Assembly: GCA_028692715.1 (NCBI GenBank)
Contig: JAQUWU010000007.1
Span: forward strand, 86,506 to 150,505
DNA: 64,000 bases
Source of the DNA: Paludibacter sp.
GTDB lineage: Bacteria > Bacteroidota > Bacteroidia > Bacteroidales > Paludibacteraceae
Reading direction: 5' to 3'
Part shown: in pieces, positions 29,539 through 49,996 of the stretch
Numbering within the stretch: the first letter of the stretch is position 1
How the letters are laid out: each line of letters begins with the position of its first letter
The notes under the pieces: model-generated
The model's input: the letters and a program-made list of their open reading frames with translations, nothing else
The model's database searches: none
What the model was told of the DNA's origin: nothing
Made by a program: the position numbers and the translations under genes

Positions 29539-30609
29539 TTACTTTGCATCTTTTAAAAGATAAATCAGCGTAGGATAGTGATCGCTATAGCCGTTTGTCC
29601 AAACACCGCCGGAGTGAGTTCTTAATGGAGATCCTTTGTATCTGCCTTCTTGTTGAGTTAAAAATGATTTATTAAATACTTCAGCTTTCCAAAGTTTAAG
29701 ATGATCTGTTTCTCCATGAGCCAGTTCCGATGAAATAATAATCTGATCGAAAAGATTCCATTGGTCATTATATGCCAGCGATCCTACTCCTTTGTCCAGC
29801 GTTTTCCACAAGGTATTATAAAGTTCGCCATCTTTAACATCGGACAATTCCTTTTTTGCTTGTAAAACTTTTTCACAACTTTCATTGGATGGGTCGTCAT
29901 TCAAATCACCCATAATAATAATTCGTGCTTTCGGGTCAACACGAAAAAGGGAATCGGCAATTGATTTTGTAAGTTGTGCTGCAGCTACTCGTTTAGGGCG
30001 AGAAGACATTTCACCACCATAACGTGATGGCCAATGATTGACAATTATATGCACTTTATCTCCTAACAAATAACCACTTACCATTAATTGGTCGCGCGTA
30101 AGAAAACCAGGGTCTTCCATTTTCAAACGATAAGATTTACTGTTGGTGACAATAAAATATTTAGGATTATAAATTAAACCCACATCTACCCCACGTCTAT
30201 CGGGACTGTCATAATGAACAATTTCGTACGAACGTCCTTTCAGTTCGGGTTGTTTTATCAAATCTTCAACAACTCCACGGTTTTCAATTTCTGAAATTCC
30301 TAAAATGGCTACTCCCACAGGTGAGTTTTCGAGTCCTATTTGGGAAATAGCATGTGCCATATGTTGAATTTTGGCAGTGTATTTCATGGTTCCCCATTTC
30401 ATTGGTCCATCCGGTGTATATTCTTCGTCATTTACATTTTCGTTATTAATGGTATCAAAAAGGTTTTCAAGATTATAAAAACCTACACAAGTTACTTGTA
30501 CGTTCAACTTTTCACTAGAGCTAGCAGCTACTTTATTTTTTGAAGTACATGCCTGACTAAGAAACAAGACTGTGAATATAAAAGAAATGATTCTGAAAGA
30601 ATTTTTCAT
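29539..30609 (-). CDS. Secreted lipoprotein of the endonuclease/exonuclease/phosphatase superfamily
   Basis: 356 residues from the ATG at 30609 (MKNSFRII), preferred over 30648, which adds an Asn run. A lipoprotein signal peptide (LFLSQAC) anchors it outside the inner membrane. DNase I-like fold marks in order: FYNLENLFDT, GISEIENR (metal-binding Glu), DRRGVDVGLIY, NHWPSR, IIMGDLNDDP and YSDHYPT (catalytic His). It hydrolyses phosphodiester or phosphoester bonds; substrate unknown. It is divergent from the TonB-dependent receptor and DUF5689 lipoprotein genes, which suggests joint action at the cell surface (inferred). Confidence 0.88.
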   Translation of the reverse strand: MKNSFRIISFIFTVLFLSQACTSKNKVAASSSEKLNVQVTCVGFYNLENLFDTINNENVNDEEYTPDGPMKWGTMKYTAKIQHMAHAISQIGLENSPVGVAILGISEIENRGVVEDLIKQPELKGRSYEIVHYDSPDRRGVDVGLIYNPKYFIVTNSKSYRLKMEDPGFLTRDQLMVSGYLLGDKVHIIVNHWPSRYGGEMSSRPKRVAAAQLTKSIADSLFRVDPKARIIIMGDLNDDPSNESCEKVLQAKKELSDVKDGELYNTLWKTLDKGVGSLAYNDQWNLFDQIIISSELAHGETDHLKLWKAEVFNKSFLTQQEGRYKGSPLRTHSGGVWTNGYSDHYPTLIYLLKDAK

Positions 30610-31012
30610 ATTGTTATTATTATTATTTTGTAAAAAATCTGTCAACAAAAGTGAGAAAAAAAAGTGAAAGAAAAAAATAGGGTTGAGATTTATTTTCTTG
30701 GAAATGCTTCGAATTCATTTTCTGAAATAATGAAGAGATTCAGTAACTACAAATTTTAAGAAATAGTTGAAAAGTAAGATTAAAAGGTTATTTTACGACA
30801 ATTTATAACTATCTGATTATATGATTTCTATGATTTTCGAATAATTTATATTTGAAATAAGTATTATTTTTATATTAAATTTAGTGACAAGTTTTAAATT
30901 CTTTTTGCATATTTATGTGATAATTGGAAAAATGATGCTACATTGCACGCCCTTTAAAAAAAAGAATATATATTGACACAAAAGCTTAAAAAATGAATGT
31001 AAATAATTAATA
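30610..31012. other. Divergent intergenic region between nuclease and TonB-dependent receptor
   Basis: About 400 bp without a coding frame I can support. It should hold the promoters for both directions. No full TTTG-N19-TAnnTTTG match was found, and no strong hairpin. It is very AT-rich. Confidence 0.5.
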
Positions 31013-33811
31013 ATGAATTGTATGAGAAAACTATTGCAGTTACTTTTTGTCTCGTTGTTGACATCCGTTTCACTTTTTGCGCAAACATCAGTGAAAGGTG
31101 TTGTTCTGATTTCGGGAACAGAAAATCCATTACCGGGAGTTAAAATTACGCTACTACAACAAAACATATCGACTCAAACTAATGCAAAGGGTGAATTTAC
31201 CCTGAGTTATATTGAAGCGGGCGATGATGAATTAAGTATTTCGCGTCAGGGTTATTTCACTCAGATAAAACTGATTAAAATTAATGCTGACAAAGAAAAT
31301 GATTTAGGAACTTTTGAACTGAAAGTAGATGTTCAGGAGGAAGTAAAACAAGATATGATCATACAGTTGAGCGAATCGCAGATAAGTGAAGATGAAGGGC
31401 GTTCTCAGAGCACATCTGCTACATTATCTTCGAAAGGTGATATATATCTTTCTCAAACCAGTTATTCCTTCAGTCCAATGCGCTTTCGTACGCGTGGTTA
31501 CGACAACAACTATGAATCTACTTATGTAAATGGAGTACACTTTATAGATGCTGAAAGAGGCGGTTTTAATTATTCCTCATTAGGAGGTTTGAACAATGCT
31601 TTTCGTAACAAAGACATAACATACGGTTATTCACCCAATAATTATGCTTTTGGTAATTTGGGAAATAATACCAATGTAGATGCTAAGGCAAGTTCTTTTG
31701 CTGCCGGCTCAAATGCCAACATAGCATTATCGAACCGATCGTACAAAATCCGCGGACAATATACTTATGCCACAGGATTACTGAATAATGGTTGGGCTTT
31801 TGCGGCATCAGGCGTTGTTCGGTGGGCCAATAGTGATGGAATACTAAAAAGCAATGTTGATGGAAATTTCTATAATTCAGGAGGACTATTTCTTGCTGCC
31901 GAAAAGAAATTTAATGAAAAACACAGCATTTCATTATCGGCATTTGGAGCACCAACACGTAGAGCAAGTCAATCTGCAATTACTAAAGAAACATACGATT
32001 TAGTGGGAGGCTCTGTTTATTATAATCCTTATTGGGGTTATCAGGATGGCAAAATCCGCAATTCTAGAATTGTAGAAACTTTTGACCCAACAGCGATTCT
32101 TGCACATGATTGGAAAATTAGCGAAACTCAACGTTTACGCACTGGATTTGCTTTTCACCACAGTTGGTATAGTAATACAGCATTTTCATACGATGGTTTA
32201 AACCCTGGTCCCGATTATTATAGAAATATGCCAAGTTTTGTCAACGACGATAATGTATTAAATGAGCAGTTAACATCTCTTTGGAAAACTGATGAGTACA
32301 CGCAACAAGTGAAATGGGATGAAATATATAATGCGAACCTTCAAAACAATATTGACAATCCTGATGGTCAAGCAAGATATATTTTGGAACGTAGACACAA
32401 TGATTTAATGGAATCAATATTAAATTCGGTTTATACCAATCAAATCAATAAAGATGTAAAACTAACTGCCGGTGTTGAAGCCAGAAGCTCCAAAGCTATG
32501 CACTATGTAACAATTGATGATATGCTTGGTGCTAACAATTATATTGATAAAGATACCTATGCCGAACGGGATTTGGTGGGTGGAACTTTACAAGATGCTG
32601 ATTCTCGTATTATTGAAAATGATCTGAATGATCCTGATAAAAATAAAACTACAGGTGATATTATACGTTATAATTACGATATGAATGTAATGACAGCCAA
32701 TGCATTTGCCAATATTGAATGGAAAATTTCACAATTAGATTTTTATGCCGGAACAAAAGCAACCTATACTCAGTTTTATCGTGACGGACATATGGAAAAT
32801 GGTCGTGCATGGTACTTGCGCGAAGTGAAAGGTCAGGACGTAAATTCTTATGGTAAAAGTACCACTTGGTTTTTCACTGACCCATCAGTTAAAGCAGGTT
32901 TCTCATACAACATTGATAATAGAAGTTTTATTAAAGCAAATGTACTTGCCGAAACAAGAGCACCATTGGTAAAAGATGCTTATGTATCGGAACGTATTAA
33001 AGACGTGCTTGTTTCGAATTTAACGAGTGAGAAAATTCTTAGCTATGATTTAACTTATTCATTTAATTATAAAGTAATTCGTGGTAGAGTGACTGGTTTT
33101 CGAACTCATATAAACGATGCTGTTGAAAAACTTGGTTATTATGATGATGCATACAAAACGTTTATAAATCATTTACTAAGTGGCGTAAATAAAATTCATC
33201 AAGGTGTTGAGGTAGGCATTTCAGTACCTATTAATGCAATGTTTACTTTATCATCGGCCGGTACTTATGCCGATTATCACTATACAAGCAATGCCACAGG
33301 TATTAAAAGTTATGAAAATGGTGCAGTTGACGATTTTACAGAAACAGTATTGACAAATGGTTTGAAAGTTAATTCAGGACCTCAATTGGCGGCTAATGTG
33401 ACATTGGATTTCTTTTATAAAATGTGGTTCGCAGATGTTACCTTGAATTATTACGACAATAACTATCTTGATTTTGCTCCAAACCGCTTTACCGAGAGTA
33501 ATCAGTTGGCTCTACAAGCAGATCAGGAATTATACGAAAAGCTTGGTAAACAAGAAAAACTTCAAGGTGGTTTTATGCTCGATGCATCGGTTGGTAAACT
33601 TATTTATTTTAAAAACAGAAATTCTTTGAATTTTAATTTAAGTGTTGGCAATTTATTGAACAATACCGAGATGATTACCGGCGGTTATCAACAAGCCCGT
33701 ATCCCAATGAGTAGTGGAGCAATTAATCCAAAAGGAGCAGATTGGTTCTTGAATAAATATTATTATGCCTGGGGTTTAAACCTATTTTTCCATGTTGGAT
33801 ATAAATTTTAA
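31013..33811 (+). CDS. TonB-dependent outer-membrane receptor with CarboxypepD_reg-like N-terminal domain
   Basis: 932 residues. The signal peptide ends SLFAQ (from ATG 31013, or a possible ATG at 31022). Next comes a carboxypeptidase-regulatory-like beta-sandwich (about 27-105, GVVLISGTENPLPGVKITLL). A plug region has MRFRTRGYDNNYESTYVNGV, and the rest is a 22-strand-type barrel ending in a terminal Phe (HVGYKF). It takes up a ligand through the outer membrane using TonB energy. No SusD follows; two DUF5689-type lipoproteins do, 14 bp and about 50 bp downstream. The substrate is unknown. The nearby secreted nuclease/phosphatase hints at nucleic acid or phosphate esters (inferred). Confidence 0.92.
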   Translation: MNCMRKLLQLLFVSLLTSVSLFAQTSVKGVVLISGTENPLPGVKITLLQQNISTQTNAKGEFTLSYIEAGDDELSISRQGYFTQIKLIKINADKENDLGTFELKVDVQEEVKQDMIIQLSESQISEDEGRSQSTSATLSSKGDIYLSQTSYSFSPMRFRTRGYDNNYESTYVNGVHFIDAERGGFNYSSLGGLNNAFRNKDITYGYSPNNYAFGNLGNNTNVDAKASSFAAGSNANIALSNRSYKIRGQYTYATGLLNNGWAFAASGVVRWANSDGILKSNVDGNFYNSGGLFLAAEKKFNEKHSISLSAFGAPTRRASQSAITKETYDLVGGSVYYNPYWGYQDGKIRNSRIVETFDPTAILAHDWKISETQRLRTGFAFHHSWYSNTAFSYDGLNPGPDYYRNMPSFVNDDNVLNEQLTSLWKTDEYTQQVKWDEIYNANLQNNIDNPDGQARYILERRHNDLMESILNSVYTNQINKDVKLTAGVEARSSKAMHYVTIDDMLGANNYIDKDTYAERDLVGGTLQDADSRIIENDLNDPDKNKTTGDIIRYNYDMNVMTANAFANIEWKISQLDFYAGTKATYTQFYRDGHMENGRAWYLREVKGQDVNSYGKSTTWFFTDPSVKAGFSYNIDNRSFIKANVLAETRAPLVKDAYVSERIKDVLVSNLTSEKILSYDLTYSFNYKVIRGRVTGFRTHINDAVEKLGYYDDAYKTFINHLLSGVNKIHQGVEVGISVPINAMFTLSSAGTYADYHYTSNATGIKSYENGAVDDFTETVLTNGLKVNSGPQLAANVTLDFFYKMWFADVTLNYYDNNYLDFAPNRFTESNQLALQADQELYEKLGKQEKLQGGFMLDASVGKLIYFKNRNSLNFNLSVGNLLNNTEMITGGYQQARIPMSSGAINPKGADWFLNKYYYAWGLNLFFHVGYKF

Positions 33812-33825
33812 TCAAATAAAATGAT

Positions 33826-34758
33826 ATGAAAAGTATATTAAAAAAAACCATCTATTTAGTTTCTATTCTTATTTTTGGAAGTTGTTCACAGTACAATTTG
33901 GATCCTCAGACTGAAATTAAAAAAGGAGAAAAAATTGAATCAACTATTACAATTGAAGATTTAAGCTCTACTTATATGACTTCGCTCGGTTCTTTTACTG
34001 CAGATAGAATAAGTTCAGACAATCCAGTTGTGATAAATGGTATTGTAACTAGTACCGATATTGAAGGAAATGTATATAAATATATTTCTGTACAAGAAGA
34101 ATTTACTAACGGACGTGCTATCCGTATTTCAATTGATGCATCTGGAATATCAGCAATATATCCGATAGGACAACGAGTATCGGTTGTGTTGAATGATTTA
34201 TGTATTGGTAAATATGGCGAAAGCCCACAAATTGGAACCTATTATTTAAAAGGCACTCGACTTTCACCAGGTGCTATTCCAATGCCTATAGCTCGTGAAA
34301 AAGTAATTGCTTATGGCAACGCAGAGCCTCAAGCTGTTGTGGCGGATACCATGACGATTGCAGAAATACTTGCAGCCCCTAAAGACGAAATGCATTATAG
34401 ACTTATTTGTATTAAAGATGCAAATTTTAATGGGTATGGAGAAGTTGAGTTTACATATAAAAAACTAACTGCTTCCGAATTGTATTTCGGTAACCCTATA
34501 CCTACTATAACAGGAGTTCCTATTGCAAGAGAATTAGTTGATGCTACAGGTAAAATATATGTTGCAACCAGCGAGTATGCAAAATTTGCTCAAAACCCAT
34601 TACCAGCATCTACCTACAAAGGAGATATAACCGTTTTAGTAAGTTGGTATAATAGTGACCCAAAATATACGGGTAACTATCAACTCACTTTACGAACTTT
34701 GGGCGACTTGGGTTCGGGTTTTGATGGATATTTAAGCACCGTAAACTATACAAGATAA
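33826..34758 (+). CDS. DUF5689-domain lipoprotein
   Basis: 310 residues. A lipoprotein signal peptide (LIFGSC, Cys at about 21) is followed by the DUF5689 region: TIEDLSSTY, VINGIVTSTDIEGNVYKYI, then GRAIRISIDASG, IYPIGQRVSVVLNDL and GKYGESPQIG. This alternation of short strands looks like an OB-type barrel. It lies 14 bp after the receptor gene, so they are co-transcribed. By analogy with SusD it may be a surface ligand-binding partner of the receptor (inferred). Confidence 0.85.
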   Translation: MKSILKKTIYLVSILIFGSCSQYNLDPQTEIKKGEKIESTITIEDLSSTYMTSLGSFTADRISSDNPVVINGIVTSTDIEGNVYKYISVQEEFTNGRAIRISIDASGISAIYPIGQRVSVVLNDLCIGKYGESPQIGTYYLKGTRLSPGAIPMPIAREKVIAYGNAEPQAVVADTMTIAEILAAPKDEMHYRLICIKDANFNGYGEVEFTYKKLTASELYFGNPIPTITGVPIARELVDATGKIYVATSEYAKFAQNPLPASTYKGDITVLVSWYNSDPKYTGNYQLTLRTLGDLGSGFDGYLSTVNYTR

Positions 34759-34793
34759 TTAAATAAACAATAATAAATTAAAATTTAGAAATT

Positions 34794-36839
34794 ATGAAGG
34801 AAATAAAATTCATGGTATTTATGCTGTTTGCTTTTACAATGGCATTTACCGGCTGTACTAATGTGAATGATCCAGAAGAAAATTCAAATGAAGAAACGGT
34901 TATATATTCTGAAAATTTTGGTACAGAATTAAGCACTACTACTCCGACTGATGGATGGCTTTCGGTAGGCAATTATACACAATATCAAAAAAATGGGAAG
35001 GGAGCTTCTGCAGTAACTTATAGTTCTGATGGTGGCGCAGTAACTCTCCGTGGGAATCAACCTTCATCCGGGTATACAGGAGCTTCGGGTTCTGCCAATG
35101 CTATGGCCGCTGCTGGAGGTGCAAGTTTAGTTATAAAGAACATTGCTACCTGTGGTGCAAAAAATTTGGTTCTTTCGTTTGGAAGTATTGTTGTAAGTGA
35201 CACTTTGTCTGTGTCATATAGAATTAGTGGAACGACTGATTGGATTCCTGTTGTTTATTCGAAAGATGTAAGCGGATGGGGCTTGGTAGAGAATCTGGAA
35301 ATCACACTACCAACAGGAACAAATACTATAAATTTAAAATTCACTGCAGCAAAAACTCAATATGGAACTCGTGTGGATGACATTAAAATAGTTACAAAAG
35401 ATGCAACAACAGCAGCTGTTGTTGACCCTGACAATGGTGATGTCAGCAATGCAACAGAAATTTCTATTGCCGATGTTCGTGCCATGAATAGCGATGTAGC
35501 AAAAACCACTTCAGTAACCATACCGGATGAGAAGAAAATTGTAGGTATTGTTGTTTCTGATGGTGTAAATTTGAATTCATATTCCACCAATTTACAACTA
35601 GTTTCTTTAGATAATTCAGCAGGTATTATGGTTCGTTTCGACAGTGATCATAGTTTCTCTTTAGGTGATAAAGTTGAAATTGTTGTTTCCGGACAATCCT
35701 TGGAATTTTACAAAAAACTACTACAAATCAACAATGTACCTTTGTCAAATGCCACAAAAATTTCGAGTGCAAACACTGTTACACCGACTACAGCTACAAT
35801 AGCACAAATTACAGCCAATATGGACGCTTACGAATCTCGTTTAGTGAAAATTGAAAATGCCACAATCACAAATACATCAAATACTTATAGTGGAAATTCG
35901 ACCATAAATGATGGTACGGGCGAAATAATACTTTATACTCGTTCACAAGCTACTTTCGCTACAACAAGTCTTCCTGTAAGCGCACAGAACATTACTGCAT
36001 TTGTAACACGATACGATGATACAAAACAGATTTCCATTCGTAATCTTGATGATGTAGTTTCAGGTAATCCAAATTTACCTGTGTTGCAAATTACTTCTGC
36101 AAATTCAGCTTCTGCAAATGTAAATGAACAATTTAGCCATACATTTATATCACAAGAAGCAAATTTGACTGGCACAACTGTTATTTCGTGTGACAATTTA
36201 CCGTCTTGGTTATCGATAAATGGCATGACAATTAGCGGTACAACACCAACTACAGAAGAAACTTTCGCACTCAACATAGTAGCAACCAATGGAATTATAA
36301 CAGCAAATCAGACATTTACTATTACTGTTAAAGCACCTACTGCTGCAGGGGTAAATTTGCTTACAAACGGAAGTTTTGAAGATTTTTCTGGCGTTGTACC
36401 TACAAGTTGGAATATTGGTACTTCTCCCAACAACCTACCTGTTGAGAAAATCACGACTGATGCTCAGAATGGAAGTATTGCAGTTAAAATGGCTGGTGAT
36501 GCGAACGGAAGATGTGATTTAAAACAAGCGGTTTCTGGAATTGAAGCTGGGAAAACTTATGTTGTTTCGTTCTGGTATAAAGATAATTTAAAATCTGCTA
36601 GTTCATCAGGTATTCGAATTTGGTCAAGTTTTACAAAGGCAGGTTCAAACATATCTGCATCTGGTGCAGATTGGGCAAGTGCATTGCAGCCTTCTGCTAC
36701 ATACGAAGCTGTTTCTGTTTGGACAAAATATGAAGTGGAAGTTGTTGCTCCTGCTGATGCAGACGGGTTTAATTTTGAAATTCGTGCAACTAAGAGTAAT
36801 TACGGAACAGTTGATAATTGTTCTCTCAGTTTAAAATAA
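34794..36839 (+). CDS. Multidomain surface lipoprotein (jelly-roll, DUF5689-like, Ig-like, CBM-like domains)
   Basis: 681 residues. A lipoprotein signal peptide (FTGC) is followed by a choice-of-anchor/jelly-roll-like domain (about 35-200, YSENFGTELST). A DUF5689/OB-like domain follows (about 230-425, GIVVSDGVNLNSY, SLGDKVEIVVSG). Then come a putative-Ig/cadherin-like domain (about 430-515, LPSWLSINGMTISGTTP) and a carbohydrate-binding-like C-terminal domain (about 520-681, NGSFEDFSG, YVVSFWYKDN). It is the last gene of the receptor operon and is followed by a terminator. It probably binds or presents substrate outside the cell. Confidence 0.85.
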   Translation: MKEIKFMVFMLFAFTMAFTGCTNVNDPEENSNEETVIYSENFGTELSTTTPTDGWLSVGNYTQYQKNGKGASAVTYSSDGGAVTLRGNQPSSGYTGASGSANAMAAAGGASLVIKNIATCGAKNLVLSFGSIVVSDTLSVSYRISGTTDWIPVVYSKDVSGWGLVENLEITLPTGTNTINLKFTAAKTQYGTRVDDIKIVTKDATTAAVVDPDNGDVSNATEISIADVRAMNSDVAKTTSVTIPDEKKIVGIVVSDGVNLNSYSTNLQLVSLDNSAGIMVRFDSDHSFSLGDKVEIVVSGQSLEFYKKLLQINNVPLSNATKISSANTVTPTTATIAQITANMDAYESRLVKIENATITNTSNTYSGNSTINDGTGEIILYTRSQATFATTSLPVSAQNITAFVTRYDDTKQISIRNLDDVVSGNPNLPVLQITSANSASANVNEQFSHTFISQEANLTGTTVISCDNLPSWLSINGMTISGTTPTTEETFALNIVATNGIITANQTFTITVKAPTAAGVNLLTNGSFEDFSGVVPTSWNIGTSPNNLPVEKITTDAQNGSIAVKMAGDANGRCDLKQAVSGIEAGKTYVVSFWYKDNLKSASSSGIRIWSSFTKAGSNISASGADWASALQPSATYEAVSVWTKYEVEVVAPADADGFNFEIRATKSNYGTVDNCSLSLK

Positions 36840-47674: not shown

Positions 47675-49996
47675 TTATTTAAGGTATACTAAACCAGTTG
47701 TAGGATATAAGTACCAGTCTGTATCTGTGGTTCCAGCTGAAGCAGCCCAAACTTTAAACTGAGGATAAGCTTCATATATTTTTACAGATTCAGTCGGATA
47801 TTTGAAGTCACCTACTGGCAACATAATTGCCCAAACCATATTGTTCGAATCTTTATAATTATTCGTTTCCTTTTGAACTTTACTACTTGGCTTGAATCCG
47901 GCCAAATGTACCTCATTGCGATCGTTTCCACTTGCATCTCCAACAATTATATAAAAATTCATTTTACTAATAATTACATCTTCGTTGCTTACAGGATTGG
48001 CAAAACTTACAGTAAAGGTATAGTTTTGAGTTTCAACTTTATTGGCATTGCTGAAAGTATTGATTACTACTGGCGACGACTTACCAAACAAACTGTGAAC
48101 ACTTGGAAACAATAGGATATTTGCTTCTGTCTGACCATTTTCAATGCTTCCTATTGAACCGGTAGAACTTAATGAAAGTTCACCAGAACTGATGTTATCA
48201 AATTGAAGAACCGCACTTAATTCTTTGGTTGATCCAGCTGCACGGGGCAAAATATCGAAGGACATTTCCAACACTTTATTTTCACTGTTGATGGTTTTTG
48301 TAATATTGTGAATGGTAAATACAAAGTCATTCATATCATAATCACCTAAATTAGGCCAAAGATCTTCCATAGCAAATGTATATTCATTGTTTTCAGTTAC
48401 AAGCATTGGAAACTCAGGGCTTTCAGGGCTACCACTACCATTATCTGCATTAACACCACCATTGTTACAATCGTTACCCGAAATTGATACTGTAGGTATT
48501 TCAACTATTGAGACATTGCTACCAATACTTAAATAATAATTTGAATTAGGTGTTTCGCCCGATGCCAAAGAGTATTCTAAATCACCCTGTAAACTCAACA
48601 CTTTCCATCCGGTTTTTTGGTTCAATTTTTTCACTGAAAATAATGGGTTTCCTGTTCCATCATTTTTACCGATAATAACCGCATTATAGTTAAAGATCAC
48701 TCCTTCAGTAAGTTTTCCCACTTCATCATTAATTGATACGCCAGTCATAAACATGGCGTTTCCACTCAATGTAACAGTGCTTTTATTAACATATAAATTA
48801 TTACAGGTAACAAGCGTACCGGCTGAACAATTAACCGTTGCACCACCTAATGACATATCAGTACACTCAACTTTACAGTTATTATTCAAAACACCCCCAC
48901 CATTCGACATGTCAAAATCTGAAGTTTTCATATAATGGTTATTGGTTATAACTGCAGTAACATTATCCGTTTCAATCGTTCCAGCTACTTCAAAAGTTCC
49001 TTCATTTCTGAATTTTGTGTTTGAATTCATTATATAATTTGTAGAAAACTTTATTTCTGAATTATTTACTAATTCTGAATTATTGGTTTGGGTAAGTTCG
49101 GTACCCACTAAAGTTCCATTATTTATAATTTTAGCATTAGAGCGGATTTCAAAATCATCATTAAAATAGGTATTTCCATCATTTACTAGAAAAGAACCAT
49201 TTCCAACAGAACTTACATTATTAAATATAAGTGAACCCTGTGGATGAACAGCCACAATAATTCCGGTTTGCTCAAAATCAGCTTTAGTATCAAAAGTAAC
49301 ACTTCCACCCGGAAGAACAACTAGTTTACAATTTGAAGGCATGTAAAATTTTTTCGCATTTATGATAACAGTACCTGCAACATATAATGCGGAATTGGAT
49401 TTCCAACCAAAATCGACACCTGAATTAGTAACTCCGGATGGGACGTAGTAACTAATACCATTAAGTGTTACAGAAGAACTTGTTAAGGTTGTATATGAAG
49501 CAGGCAATTCATAATCAACAGCTTTTGGATCAGGAGTTGCTACTACTTTTGCTGCTTTAACGGCTGCTACAGAAGTACTGTATGATTTAAAATTACAAGA
49601 AAAACTATCAGATCCAGAACTTAATTCTACTATTTTTACAGTTTTACGTTTTAATGGATCTGTCTGACGAATGTAAATTTGAGAAATGTGTTGTGGAATT
49701 ACCAAATTCGTTTTTAACGAACTAGTTCCTTTAGCCACACCGGCAGTCAGTAAATTTGCAACAGTGTCTGTAGAGAATGGATTACGATCAAACACTTCAA
49801 CTTTGTAATAGTATTCATCGTTATAAGTATCATTCACATTTACTTCAAGTTGAATTGCCTTTGTTGTAGAGTAAGTAAACTTTTCGTTTGCCGAAACAAC
49901 AACTTCAGGATTATCAACGTCATTATTACAGGATGTAAAAAACATTGAAAAAGTCAAAACGACTAAACCTACAAAAAAATTTGTTTTCATATTCAT
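47675..49996 (-). CDS. LruC/DUF4842-domain surface lipoprotein with a repetitive beta-solenoid-like middle
   Basis: 773 residues (a start six bases later, MKTNFF, is equally plausible). A lipoprotein signal peptide ends FFTSC. Residues about 230-400 are Asn-rich with repeated short units (NNGTLVG, NNSEIKF, NEGTFEV, NNHYM) that look like a right-handed beta-solenoid. The C-terminal 250 residues carry the LruC/DUF4842 signature DLWPNLGDYDMNDFVFTIH (a calcium-binding-like DYDMND), found in surface proteins of Bacteroidota and Leptospira. It is probably a surface-exposed adhesin or binding protein; ligand unknown. It is a monocistronic gene with terminators on both sides. Confidence 0.85.
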   Translation of the reverse strand: MNMKTNFFVGLVVLTFSMFFTSCNNDVDNPEVVVSANEKFTYSTTKAIQLEVNVNDTYNDEYYYKVEVFDRNPFSTDTVANLLTAGVAKGTSSLKTNLVIPQHISQIYIRQTDPLKRKTVKIVELSSGSDSFSCNFKSYSTSVAAVKAAKVVATPDPKAVDYELPASYTTLTSSSVTLNGISYYVPSGVTNSGVDFGWKSNSALYVAGTVIINAKKFYMPSNCKLVVLPGGSVTFDTKADFEQTGIIVAVHPQGSLIFNNVSSVGNGSFLVNDGNTYFNDDFEIRSNAKIINNGTLVGTELTQTNNSELVNNSEIKFSTNYIMNSNTKFRNEGTFEVAGTIETDNVTAVITNNHYMKTSDFDMSNGGGVLNNNCKVECTDMSLGGATVNCSAGTLVTCNNLYVNKSTVTLSGNAMFMTGVSINDEVGKLTEGVIFNYNAVIIGKNDGTGNPLFSVKKLNQKTGWKVLSLQGDLEYSLASGETPNSNYYLSIGSNVSIVEIPTVSISGNDCNNGGVNADNGSGSPESPEFPMLVTENNEYTFAMEDLWPNLGDYDMNDFVFTIHNITKTINSENKVLEMSFDILPRAAGSTKELSAVLQFDNISSGELSLSSTGSIGSIENGQTEANILLFPSVHSLFGKSSPVVINTFSNANKVETQNYTFTVSFANPVSNEDVIISKMNFYIIVGDASGNDRNEVHLAGFKPSSKVQKETNNYKDSNNMVWAIMLPVGDFKYPTESVKIYEAYPQFKVWAASAGTTDTDWYLYPTTGLVYLK

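Follow-up and report, generated by a model that had tools for sequence, protein, structure and literature searches.

A window of 64,000 nucleotides from Paludibacter sp. (contig JAQUWU010000007.1) holds, at positions 29539 to 36839, a gene for an exported hydrolase of the endonuclease/exonuclease/phosphatase (EEP) fold next to genes for a TonB-dependent receptor and two lipoproteins of the DUF5689 family, and the question raised by this locus is what it brings into the cell, and for what purpose. The initial annotation saw in it a candidate uncharacterised system that captures, cuts and imports nucleic acid or organic phosphate at the cell surface. In our analysis the locus probably encodes an outer-membrane gate that imports DNA for natural transformation, a role likelier than scavenging DNA as food.

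Correspondence with a transformation locus of Riemerella anatipestifer

The evidence that carries this reading comes from R. anatipestifer, a related bacterium of ducks. In a transposon screen for natural transformation (PMC8459023), markerless deletion of either RA0C_RS04915 or RA0C_RS04920 brought transformation below the detection limit, compared with 5.4e-5 in the wild type. RS04915 is an outer-membrane protein with a CarboxypepD_reg domain and RS04920 a DUF5689 protein for which DUF5017 was also reported, and in the authors' proposal DNA is bound by RS04920 and crosses the outer membrane by way of RS04915. Homologs of RS04915 are said there to occur only in Flavobacteriaceae, yet the same section calls them widely distributed in Bacteroidetes. 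RS04910 lies outside the 20 genes of the published screen, and its single mention says that, as a gene upstream, it showed no change in transcription; the conversion of double-stranded to single-stranded DNA was ascribed to an unidentified protein. Among open-licence PMC papers, this is the only one in which DUF5689 or RA0C_RS04915 is named. According to another paper, deletions of tonBA and tonBB lower transformation in R. anatipestifer, that of tonBA without a defect in iron uptake (PMC8383284), as a TonB-driven DNA gate would predict. A locus of this kind is already known since 2021 in one species, R. anatipestifer, and "uncharacterised" no longer describes it, since the orthologs of its receptor and DUF5689 proteins have deletion phenotypes.

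The features of the locus in the window are the following (aa, amino acids).

29539..30612, minus strand: exported hydrolase of the EEP fold, corresponding to RA0C_RS04910 (match to the whole of PF19580, E 9e-129)
29539-30648, minus strand: the same gene as given in the list of open reading frames (ORFs), from an upstream TTG
30613..31012, no strand: divergent intergenic region, presumably holding both promoters (reading of the sequence)
31013..33811, plus strand: TonB-dependent receptor of 932 aa, ortholog of RA0C_RS04915 (best-match comparisons, tree, barrel model)
31091..31321, plus strand: N-terminal CarboxypepD_reg-like domain of the receptor, aa 27-103 (PF13715/PF13620)
31436..31687, plus strand: receptor plug, roughly aa 142-225, with limits drawn by eye on the AlphaFold2 model
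33826..34758, plus strand: DUF5689 surface lipoprotein of 310 aa, corresponding to the N-terminal portion of RA0C_RS04920 (PF18942, E 2.7e-40)
34794..36839, plus strand: second DUF5689 lipoprotein, of 681 aa (PF18942, E 9.3e-30)
35454-36056, plus strand: DUF5689 stretch of the 681-aa lipoprotein, aa 221-421 (PF18942)
aa 521-665 of the 681-aa lipoprotein, plus strand: weak CBM_4_9-like region (E 5e-4, 20.9 bits, below the CBM_4_9 cut-off)

The EEP gene is likelier to span 29539-30612, because the in-frame ATG at 30612 begins a signal peptide. The three plus-strand genes are separated by gaps of 14 and 35 bases, and thus look like one operon. Gene positions and Pfam families (scan of the locus proteins at E ≤ 1) agree with the divergent arrangement first described, and also with the remark that the receptor is not followed by SusD, as neither lipoprotein matches a SusD family in that scan.

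The primer that PMC8383284 lists for R. anatipestifer comEC finds an exact match in two of the 320 genomes of one family, named here G841 and G843. Among the ORFs of at least 90 aa in G843, RecA (named by eye) is separated from ComEC by four genes, and ComEC by two more from the EEP gene, which the receptor and DUF5689 follow directly (these three and ComEC named by Pfam). This order, counted in locus-tag steps of five from RS04870, gives RS04895, RS04910, RS04915 and RS04920 exactly. On the primer match and the gene order, G843 was taken as R. anatipestifer. Its RS04910-RS04915-RS04920 locus shows the three gene families in the order and orientation of the window, and the receptor and DUF5689 genes correspond to those of the window by sequence. 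By contrast, R. anatipestifer has a single DUF5689 protein of 467 aa where the window has two (310 and 681 aa), and its ComEC lies near the locus, whereas that of the window's genome is on another contig.

When the R. anatipestifer receptor was compared with the window's own genome (G000), the window receptor scored 266.6 bits and the next best match 29.2. The reverse comparison set the window receptor against RS04915 and the one remaining match in G843, and gave 285 bits for RS04915 and 119 for this paralog. The EEP proteins of the window and R. anatipestifer (L145:14438-15625) share 37% identity (240 bits). For the DUF5689 proteins, compared with 423 of the 467 aa of RS04920, the 310-aa protein showed 29% identity over 317 columns (E 4e-19) and the 681-aa protein a marginal likeness (E 0.006). 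A tree built from 22 receptors and 3 paralogs puts every one of the receptors on the same side of a 100/100 branch; R. anatipestifer joins six rows of its own and a neighbouring family (97/94), and the window joins fourteen others (97/97), among which the ten rows of its own order cluster together (100/99), a topology that looks like old vertical inheritance.

Predicted folds of the three protein families

The window receptor matches CarboxypepD_reg at its N-terminus and no Plug or barrel family in the same Pfam scan; among 40 aligned members of the receptor family, Plug was matched in 10 (E ≤ 0.01) and the barrel family in one. Two receptor alignments were made, one (A1) with 24 of 30 receptor loci, window included, after dropping split, fused, truncated and unusual ones, and another (A3) with 39 of the 52 locus receptors shorter than 1000 aa (78 listed) plus the window. 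The AlphaFold2 model of the receptor has a mean predicted local distance difference test score (pLDDT) of 85.7, and Foldseek found PqqU as the best match (E 2.7e-25), followed by others such as Fiu, YncD, PiuA, FecA, FhuA and BtuB; among the titles of the 50 Protein Data Bank (PDB) rows listed for the barrel, none names SusC. By prediction the receptor is thus a TonB-dependent barrel of the usual plugged kind that carries a further domain at its N-terminus, this domain being the only part matched in a PDB sequence search. A TonB box would be expected in the linker of aa 107-141 that precedes the plug, where pLDDT falls below 50 and no clear box was seen by eye. Receptors in two Paludibacter sp. 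records of metagenome-assembled genomes (MAGs) are 80-81% identical to that of the window. In the relatives G030:C16 (L012), G370:C19 and G148:C19 the receptor gene is broken by a stop codon, and these are possibly decayed copies.

Both DUF5689 proteins carry a lipobox, FGSC with Cys20 in the 310-aa protein and FTGC with Cys21 in the 681-aa one, and a lipobox-like Cys was present in 92 of 105 DUF5689 proteins of receptor loci. The own genome gave no further DUF5689 match at E ≤ 0.001. The model of the 310-aa protein (pLDDT 89.7, predicted template-modelling score 0.84) had 47 PDB matches at E ≤ 0.001, among them HIN domains of p202, p204, p205, IFI16 and MNDA, as well as Teb1, POT1, RPA and the Oxytricha telomere protein. 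The matches whose titles name no molecule we take to be HIN domains, and the named ones are, in our understanding, all DNA binders with tandem oligonucleotide/oligosaccharide-binding (OB) barrels. The OB-type fold that had been suspected in the DUF5689 region is therefore supported by structure prediction, though with low template-modelling scores (TM-scores). The "SusD-like position" given to these proteins fits their gene order only, as neither of them matches a SusD family. A sequence search of the PDB with DUF5689 returned nothing useful, and the DUF5689 alignment (A2) held 28 of 74 DUF5689 proteins plus the window. Three Bacteroidales lipoproteins (L051:12802-14730, L059:6806-9583 and L067:12783-15056) have one to three DUF6359 stretches behind DUF5689. 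The DUF5689 model also matches above cut-off in a Bacillus subtilis control genome, and our guess is that this match is the OB-bearing nuclease YhcR.

In the EEP protein, ten residues (N46, E48, E107, E109, H192, D235, N237, D288, D343 and H344) are invariant in 36 aligned sequences, namely 35 of 48 EEP proteins plus the window (alignment A4), and we take them to be a complete set of catalytic type. The same protein had been called a secreted lipoprotein, which became doubtful: its Cys site, LSQAC, is not accepted by a crude lipobox expression, and a lipobox-like Cys appears in only 5 of 56 EEP proteins of receptor loci. A periplasmic place is therefore as likely as a surface one, and a periplasmic EEP would suit the conversion of double-stranded to single-stranded DNA that PMC8459023 assigns to an unidentified protein. 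The model of the extracellular DNases ExeM/NucH was matched by 22 of the 36 EEP members at E ≤ 1e-3, and the PDB sequence search with the EEP protein gave nothing useful. PF19580 is present in 135 of 149 Bacteroidales genomes and lies beside the receptor in at least 44; the own genome holds a second PF19580 gene.

Spread of the module and the inner half of the pathway

In the 149 Bacteroidales genomes the receptor was matched in 87 at E ≤ 1e-20, with scores that form two classes, an upper one of 69 genomes (at least 231 bits) and a lower one ending at 138.7. DUF5689 matches of at least 100 bits, a limit set after seeing the table (82 of the 149 match at E ≤ 1e-5), were found in 70 genomes, which are the same 69 plus G113, where a diverged receptor match adjoins; the best match outside them reached 70.1 bits (G019). 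Receptor and strong DUF5689 lie within 6 kb in 66 of the 69 genomes, and a strong EEP match within 6 kb of the receptor in at least 44 of the 69, a count that took in EEP matches of about 358 bits and above as well as a single weaker one. A sample of 395 genomes of the phylum had 69 that match the receptor profile at E ≤ 1e-60, 61 of them in the upper class and one of these in two pieces.

At the level of single loci, DUF5689 is directly downstream of the receptor in all 76 that reach far enough (the window and named records). The EEP gene is within 4.5 kb in 24 of the 52 named loci with both flanks, being divergent upstream in 16, upstream on the same strand in 4 and downstream on the same strand in 4. 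Nineteen wider Bacteroidia loci have DUF5689 beside the receptor in 18 cases, L152 being the exception, and EEP in 17 (16 divergent upstream, 1 downstream), with two loci lacking it. Clustering of the proteins within around 11 kb of 100 loci gave the receptor in 100, DUF5689 in 95, EEP in 53 and nothing else above 25, the next-ranking clusters coming almost wholly from the rumen and gut group. The linkage of receptor and DUF5689 is far more than chance, and the module consists of a nearly constant pair of genes that a third often accompanies. The recurrent linkage in other genomes, proposed as a check in the initial annotation, was thus found, less strictly for the EEP gene.

Other variants were seen around the receptor. 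Enlarged receptors of 1042-1234 aa, with no EEP match around the locus, occur mostly in MAGs of rumen or gut Paludibacteraceae or Bacteroidales (L040, L042, L045-L050, L052-L058, L060, L061, L063, L064, L073, L075, L081, L083 and L091), and many of these loci share upstream genes that resemble AspS, DnaB, MeaB and RelA by eye. Some Flavobacteriia-like genomes have a paralogous receptor, scoring 244-373 bits, no more than 10 kb away from the locus (L157:12543-15179, L159:3745-6372 and L161:16403-18952), accompanied in L159 and L161 by a second, shorter EEP gene (322 aa); these three receptors are apart in the tree at 100/100.

With regard to the rest of the competence pathway, the own genome has a ComEC of 686 aa (G000:C33, by Pfam) and a membrane-anchored protein with three helix-hairpin-helix (HhH) motifs, of 312 aa (G000:C82), and an HhH relative was located in G843 at 528-529 kb, near the place expected by proportion for RS02645. 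The ATPase family of type II secretion and type IV pili, PF00437, had no match in G000 or G843 among the first-look candidates scored (21 of 36 and 21 of 27, respectively). A panel of 80 genomes was composed of 40 of the 69 receptor-bearing and 38 of the 80 other Bacteroidales, chosen mostly for completeness, plus G843 and G428; PF00437 was present in 3 of these 80 (G064, G090 and G106) versus 13 of 14 control genomes. Phylogenetic profiling with the competence genes was also tried and set aside, as neither ComEC nor the HhH protein clearly separates receptor-bearing from other genomes.

A probable gate for transforming DNA and its alternatives

Taking these data together, the DUF5689 lipoproteins, as tandem OB barrels, would cover the receptor on the outside of the cell and capture DNA from the surroundings, the TonB-powered receptor would let this DNA into the periplasm, the divergent EEP protein would nick or trim it, and a strand would be handed to ComEC by the membrane-anchored triple-HhH protein. 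This scheme supposes that DNA itself may pass through the receptor, that DUF5689 may bind it, that the EEP protein could be a DNase of the transformation pathway and that this Paludibacter may be competent. The substrate first proposed, nucleic acid or organic phosphate, is likely to be nucleic acid, given the orthology to genes essential for natural transformation; nothing observed points to organic phosphate. A broader proposal, which we hold tentatively and consider slightly more apt to fail than to stand, is that a TonB-dependent transporter importing double-stranded DNA polymer, a tandem-OB DUF5689 lipoprotein cap and a dedicated EEP nuclease could form the ancestral outer-membrane machinery, independent of pili, with which much of the class Bacteroidia takes up DNA and which Bacteroidales and Flavobacteriales would have received by vertical descent. 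We know of no other TonB-dependent transporter that imports DNA.

As in SusC/SusD glycan uptake, a surface lipoprotein comes after a CarboxypepD_reg-bearing TonB-dependent barrel in what looks like a single operon, but the lipoproteins of the window have no SusD match and the model of the 310-aa one resembles tandem OB barrels. The extracellular DNases ExeM, NucH and Xds likewise have an EEP nuclease working with OB domains, both in one protein, whereas the window has them in separate genes; for Vibrio Xds, PMC6746945 reports that activity depends on the OB domain as well as on the EEP domain. With DNA uptake through type IV pilus and secretin, ComEA and ComEC, the window's genome shares the inner half, HhH protein and ComEC. 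In contrast, no PF00437 match was found in the candidates scored from G000 and G843, and the outer half would be, in the window, the TonB-dependent receptor. New in this analysis are the wide occurrence of the system in Bacteroidales, its association with an EEP gene, the predicted OB fold of DUF5689 and the lack of a pilus-motor match among the candidates scored from G000 and R. anatipestifer. A nuclease candidate is added to two genes with a phenotype, resulting in a three-gene hypothesis, and the candidate system is extended to gut, oral and environmental Bacteroidales. The locus suggests how a large bacterial group without the usual pili could take in DNA.

Several observations weigh against an import gate for transformation. 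The identity between the window and R. anatipestifer receptors is just 25-27%. The effects of the tonB mutations may be indirect; for tonBA the authors of PMC8383284 suggest a nutrient effect. Relative to query length, the DUF5689 model reaches low TM-scores of 0.19-0.32 with its OB matches, so that OB barrels as such have support and their arrangement in pairs has less. DUF5689 proteins are acidic, with an isoelectric point of 4.9 in the window and a median of 4.86 (range 4.1-8.9) over 71 relatives, values that speak against binding of DNA simply through charge, and a charge argument for such binding failed. A profile comparison of DUF5689 with the OB regions of ExeM gave a probability of 2%, below two controls (4% and 26%), and this sequence link was dropped as not significant. 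The EEP protein of the window scores 28.2 bits against the ExeM/NucH model, whose cut-off is 300, and an EEP gene is absent near 28 of the 52 named loci, many of them of rumen and gut Paludibacteraceae; in L152 (G165:C8) an upper-class receptor of 999 bits has neither DUF5689 nor EEP beside it. As to the inner half, ComEC does not track the receptor, being present in 37 of 40 genomes with it and 37 of 38 without it, and the receptor-bearing G002, G034 and G050 show no ComEC. The lengths of ComEC (Mann-Whitney p 0.008, Fisher p 0.25) and of the HhH protein (Mann-Whitney p 0.27, Fisher p 0.044) gave mixed, post hoc results, with thresholds chosen after seeing the data. The PF00437 negative covers just the 21 candidates scored in each of G000 and G843, and Flavobacterium johnsoniae is reported to have pilus-gene homologs (PMC7965970), so that pilus absence cannot be extended to all Flavobacteriia.

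The alternative that survives best, possible although clearly less favoured than a role in the pathway, keeps receptor and DUF5689 as importers of DNA and leaves the EEP protein as a neighbour with another role, such as removing DNA from the cell surface or hydrolysing some other phosphoester. The absence of EEP near more than half of the named loci fits it, and so do the presence of PF19580 in nearly all the Bacteroidales genomes, set against at least 44 with a copy beside the receptor, and the position of RS04910 outside the 20 screened genes, with its unchanged transcription (PMC8459023). Yet the EEP gene accompanies the receptor through three arrangements (16, 4 and 4 of 52) and is divergent upstream in 16 of the 19 wider loci.

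Nutritional import, in which the EEP protein would cleave extracellular DNA, RNA or phosphoesters and the fragments, once bound by DUF5689, would enter through the receptor as food, is unlikely. The EEP fold with complete catalytic-type residues, the weak match of 22 of 36 EEP members to the extracellular DNase model and the linkage of the three genes would all suit it. However, deletions of the R. anatipestifer orthologs lose transformation, which needs long DNA (PMC8459023), and this is the only phenotype found in print, against the scavenging role first assumed. No catabolic partner recurs, since beyond DUF5689 and EEP no cluster is near more than 25 of 100 receptors, and the catabolic reading was dropped for this reason; the lack of EEP near many loci would also be odd for a feeding enzyme.

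Finally, the receptor could be an export or surface-assembly protein whose loss disturbs the envelope, transformation failing indirectly, which we regard as very improbable. The model for it would be the Myxococcus protein Oar, which shares the CarboxypepD_reg and barrel outline. A TonB-dependent transporter is reported to be required for PopC secretion (PMC6434023), but the near-constant pairing with DUF5689 (76 of 76 and 18 of 19 loci) speaks against export, and a single DUF5689 deletion is as null as that of the receptor (PMC8459023).

Returning to the window, a TAnnTTTG promoter motif is present in one copy in the divergent intergenic region, at 30847 on the plus strand, the motif being at chance level over the window (104 found, 101.6 expected), and scans for sigma-70 promoters and terminators also gave chance level only. 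Further along, an ORF at 47675-49996 on the minus strand encodes an exported, lipoprotein-like protein of 773 aa with a beta-rich, repetitive middle, whose C-terminal part resembles an LruC-type domain by eye.

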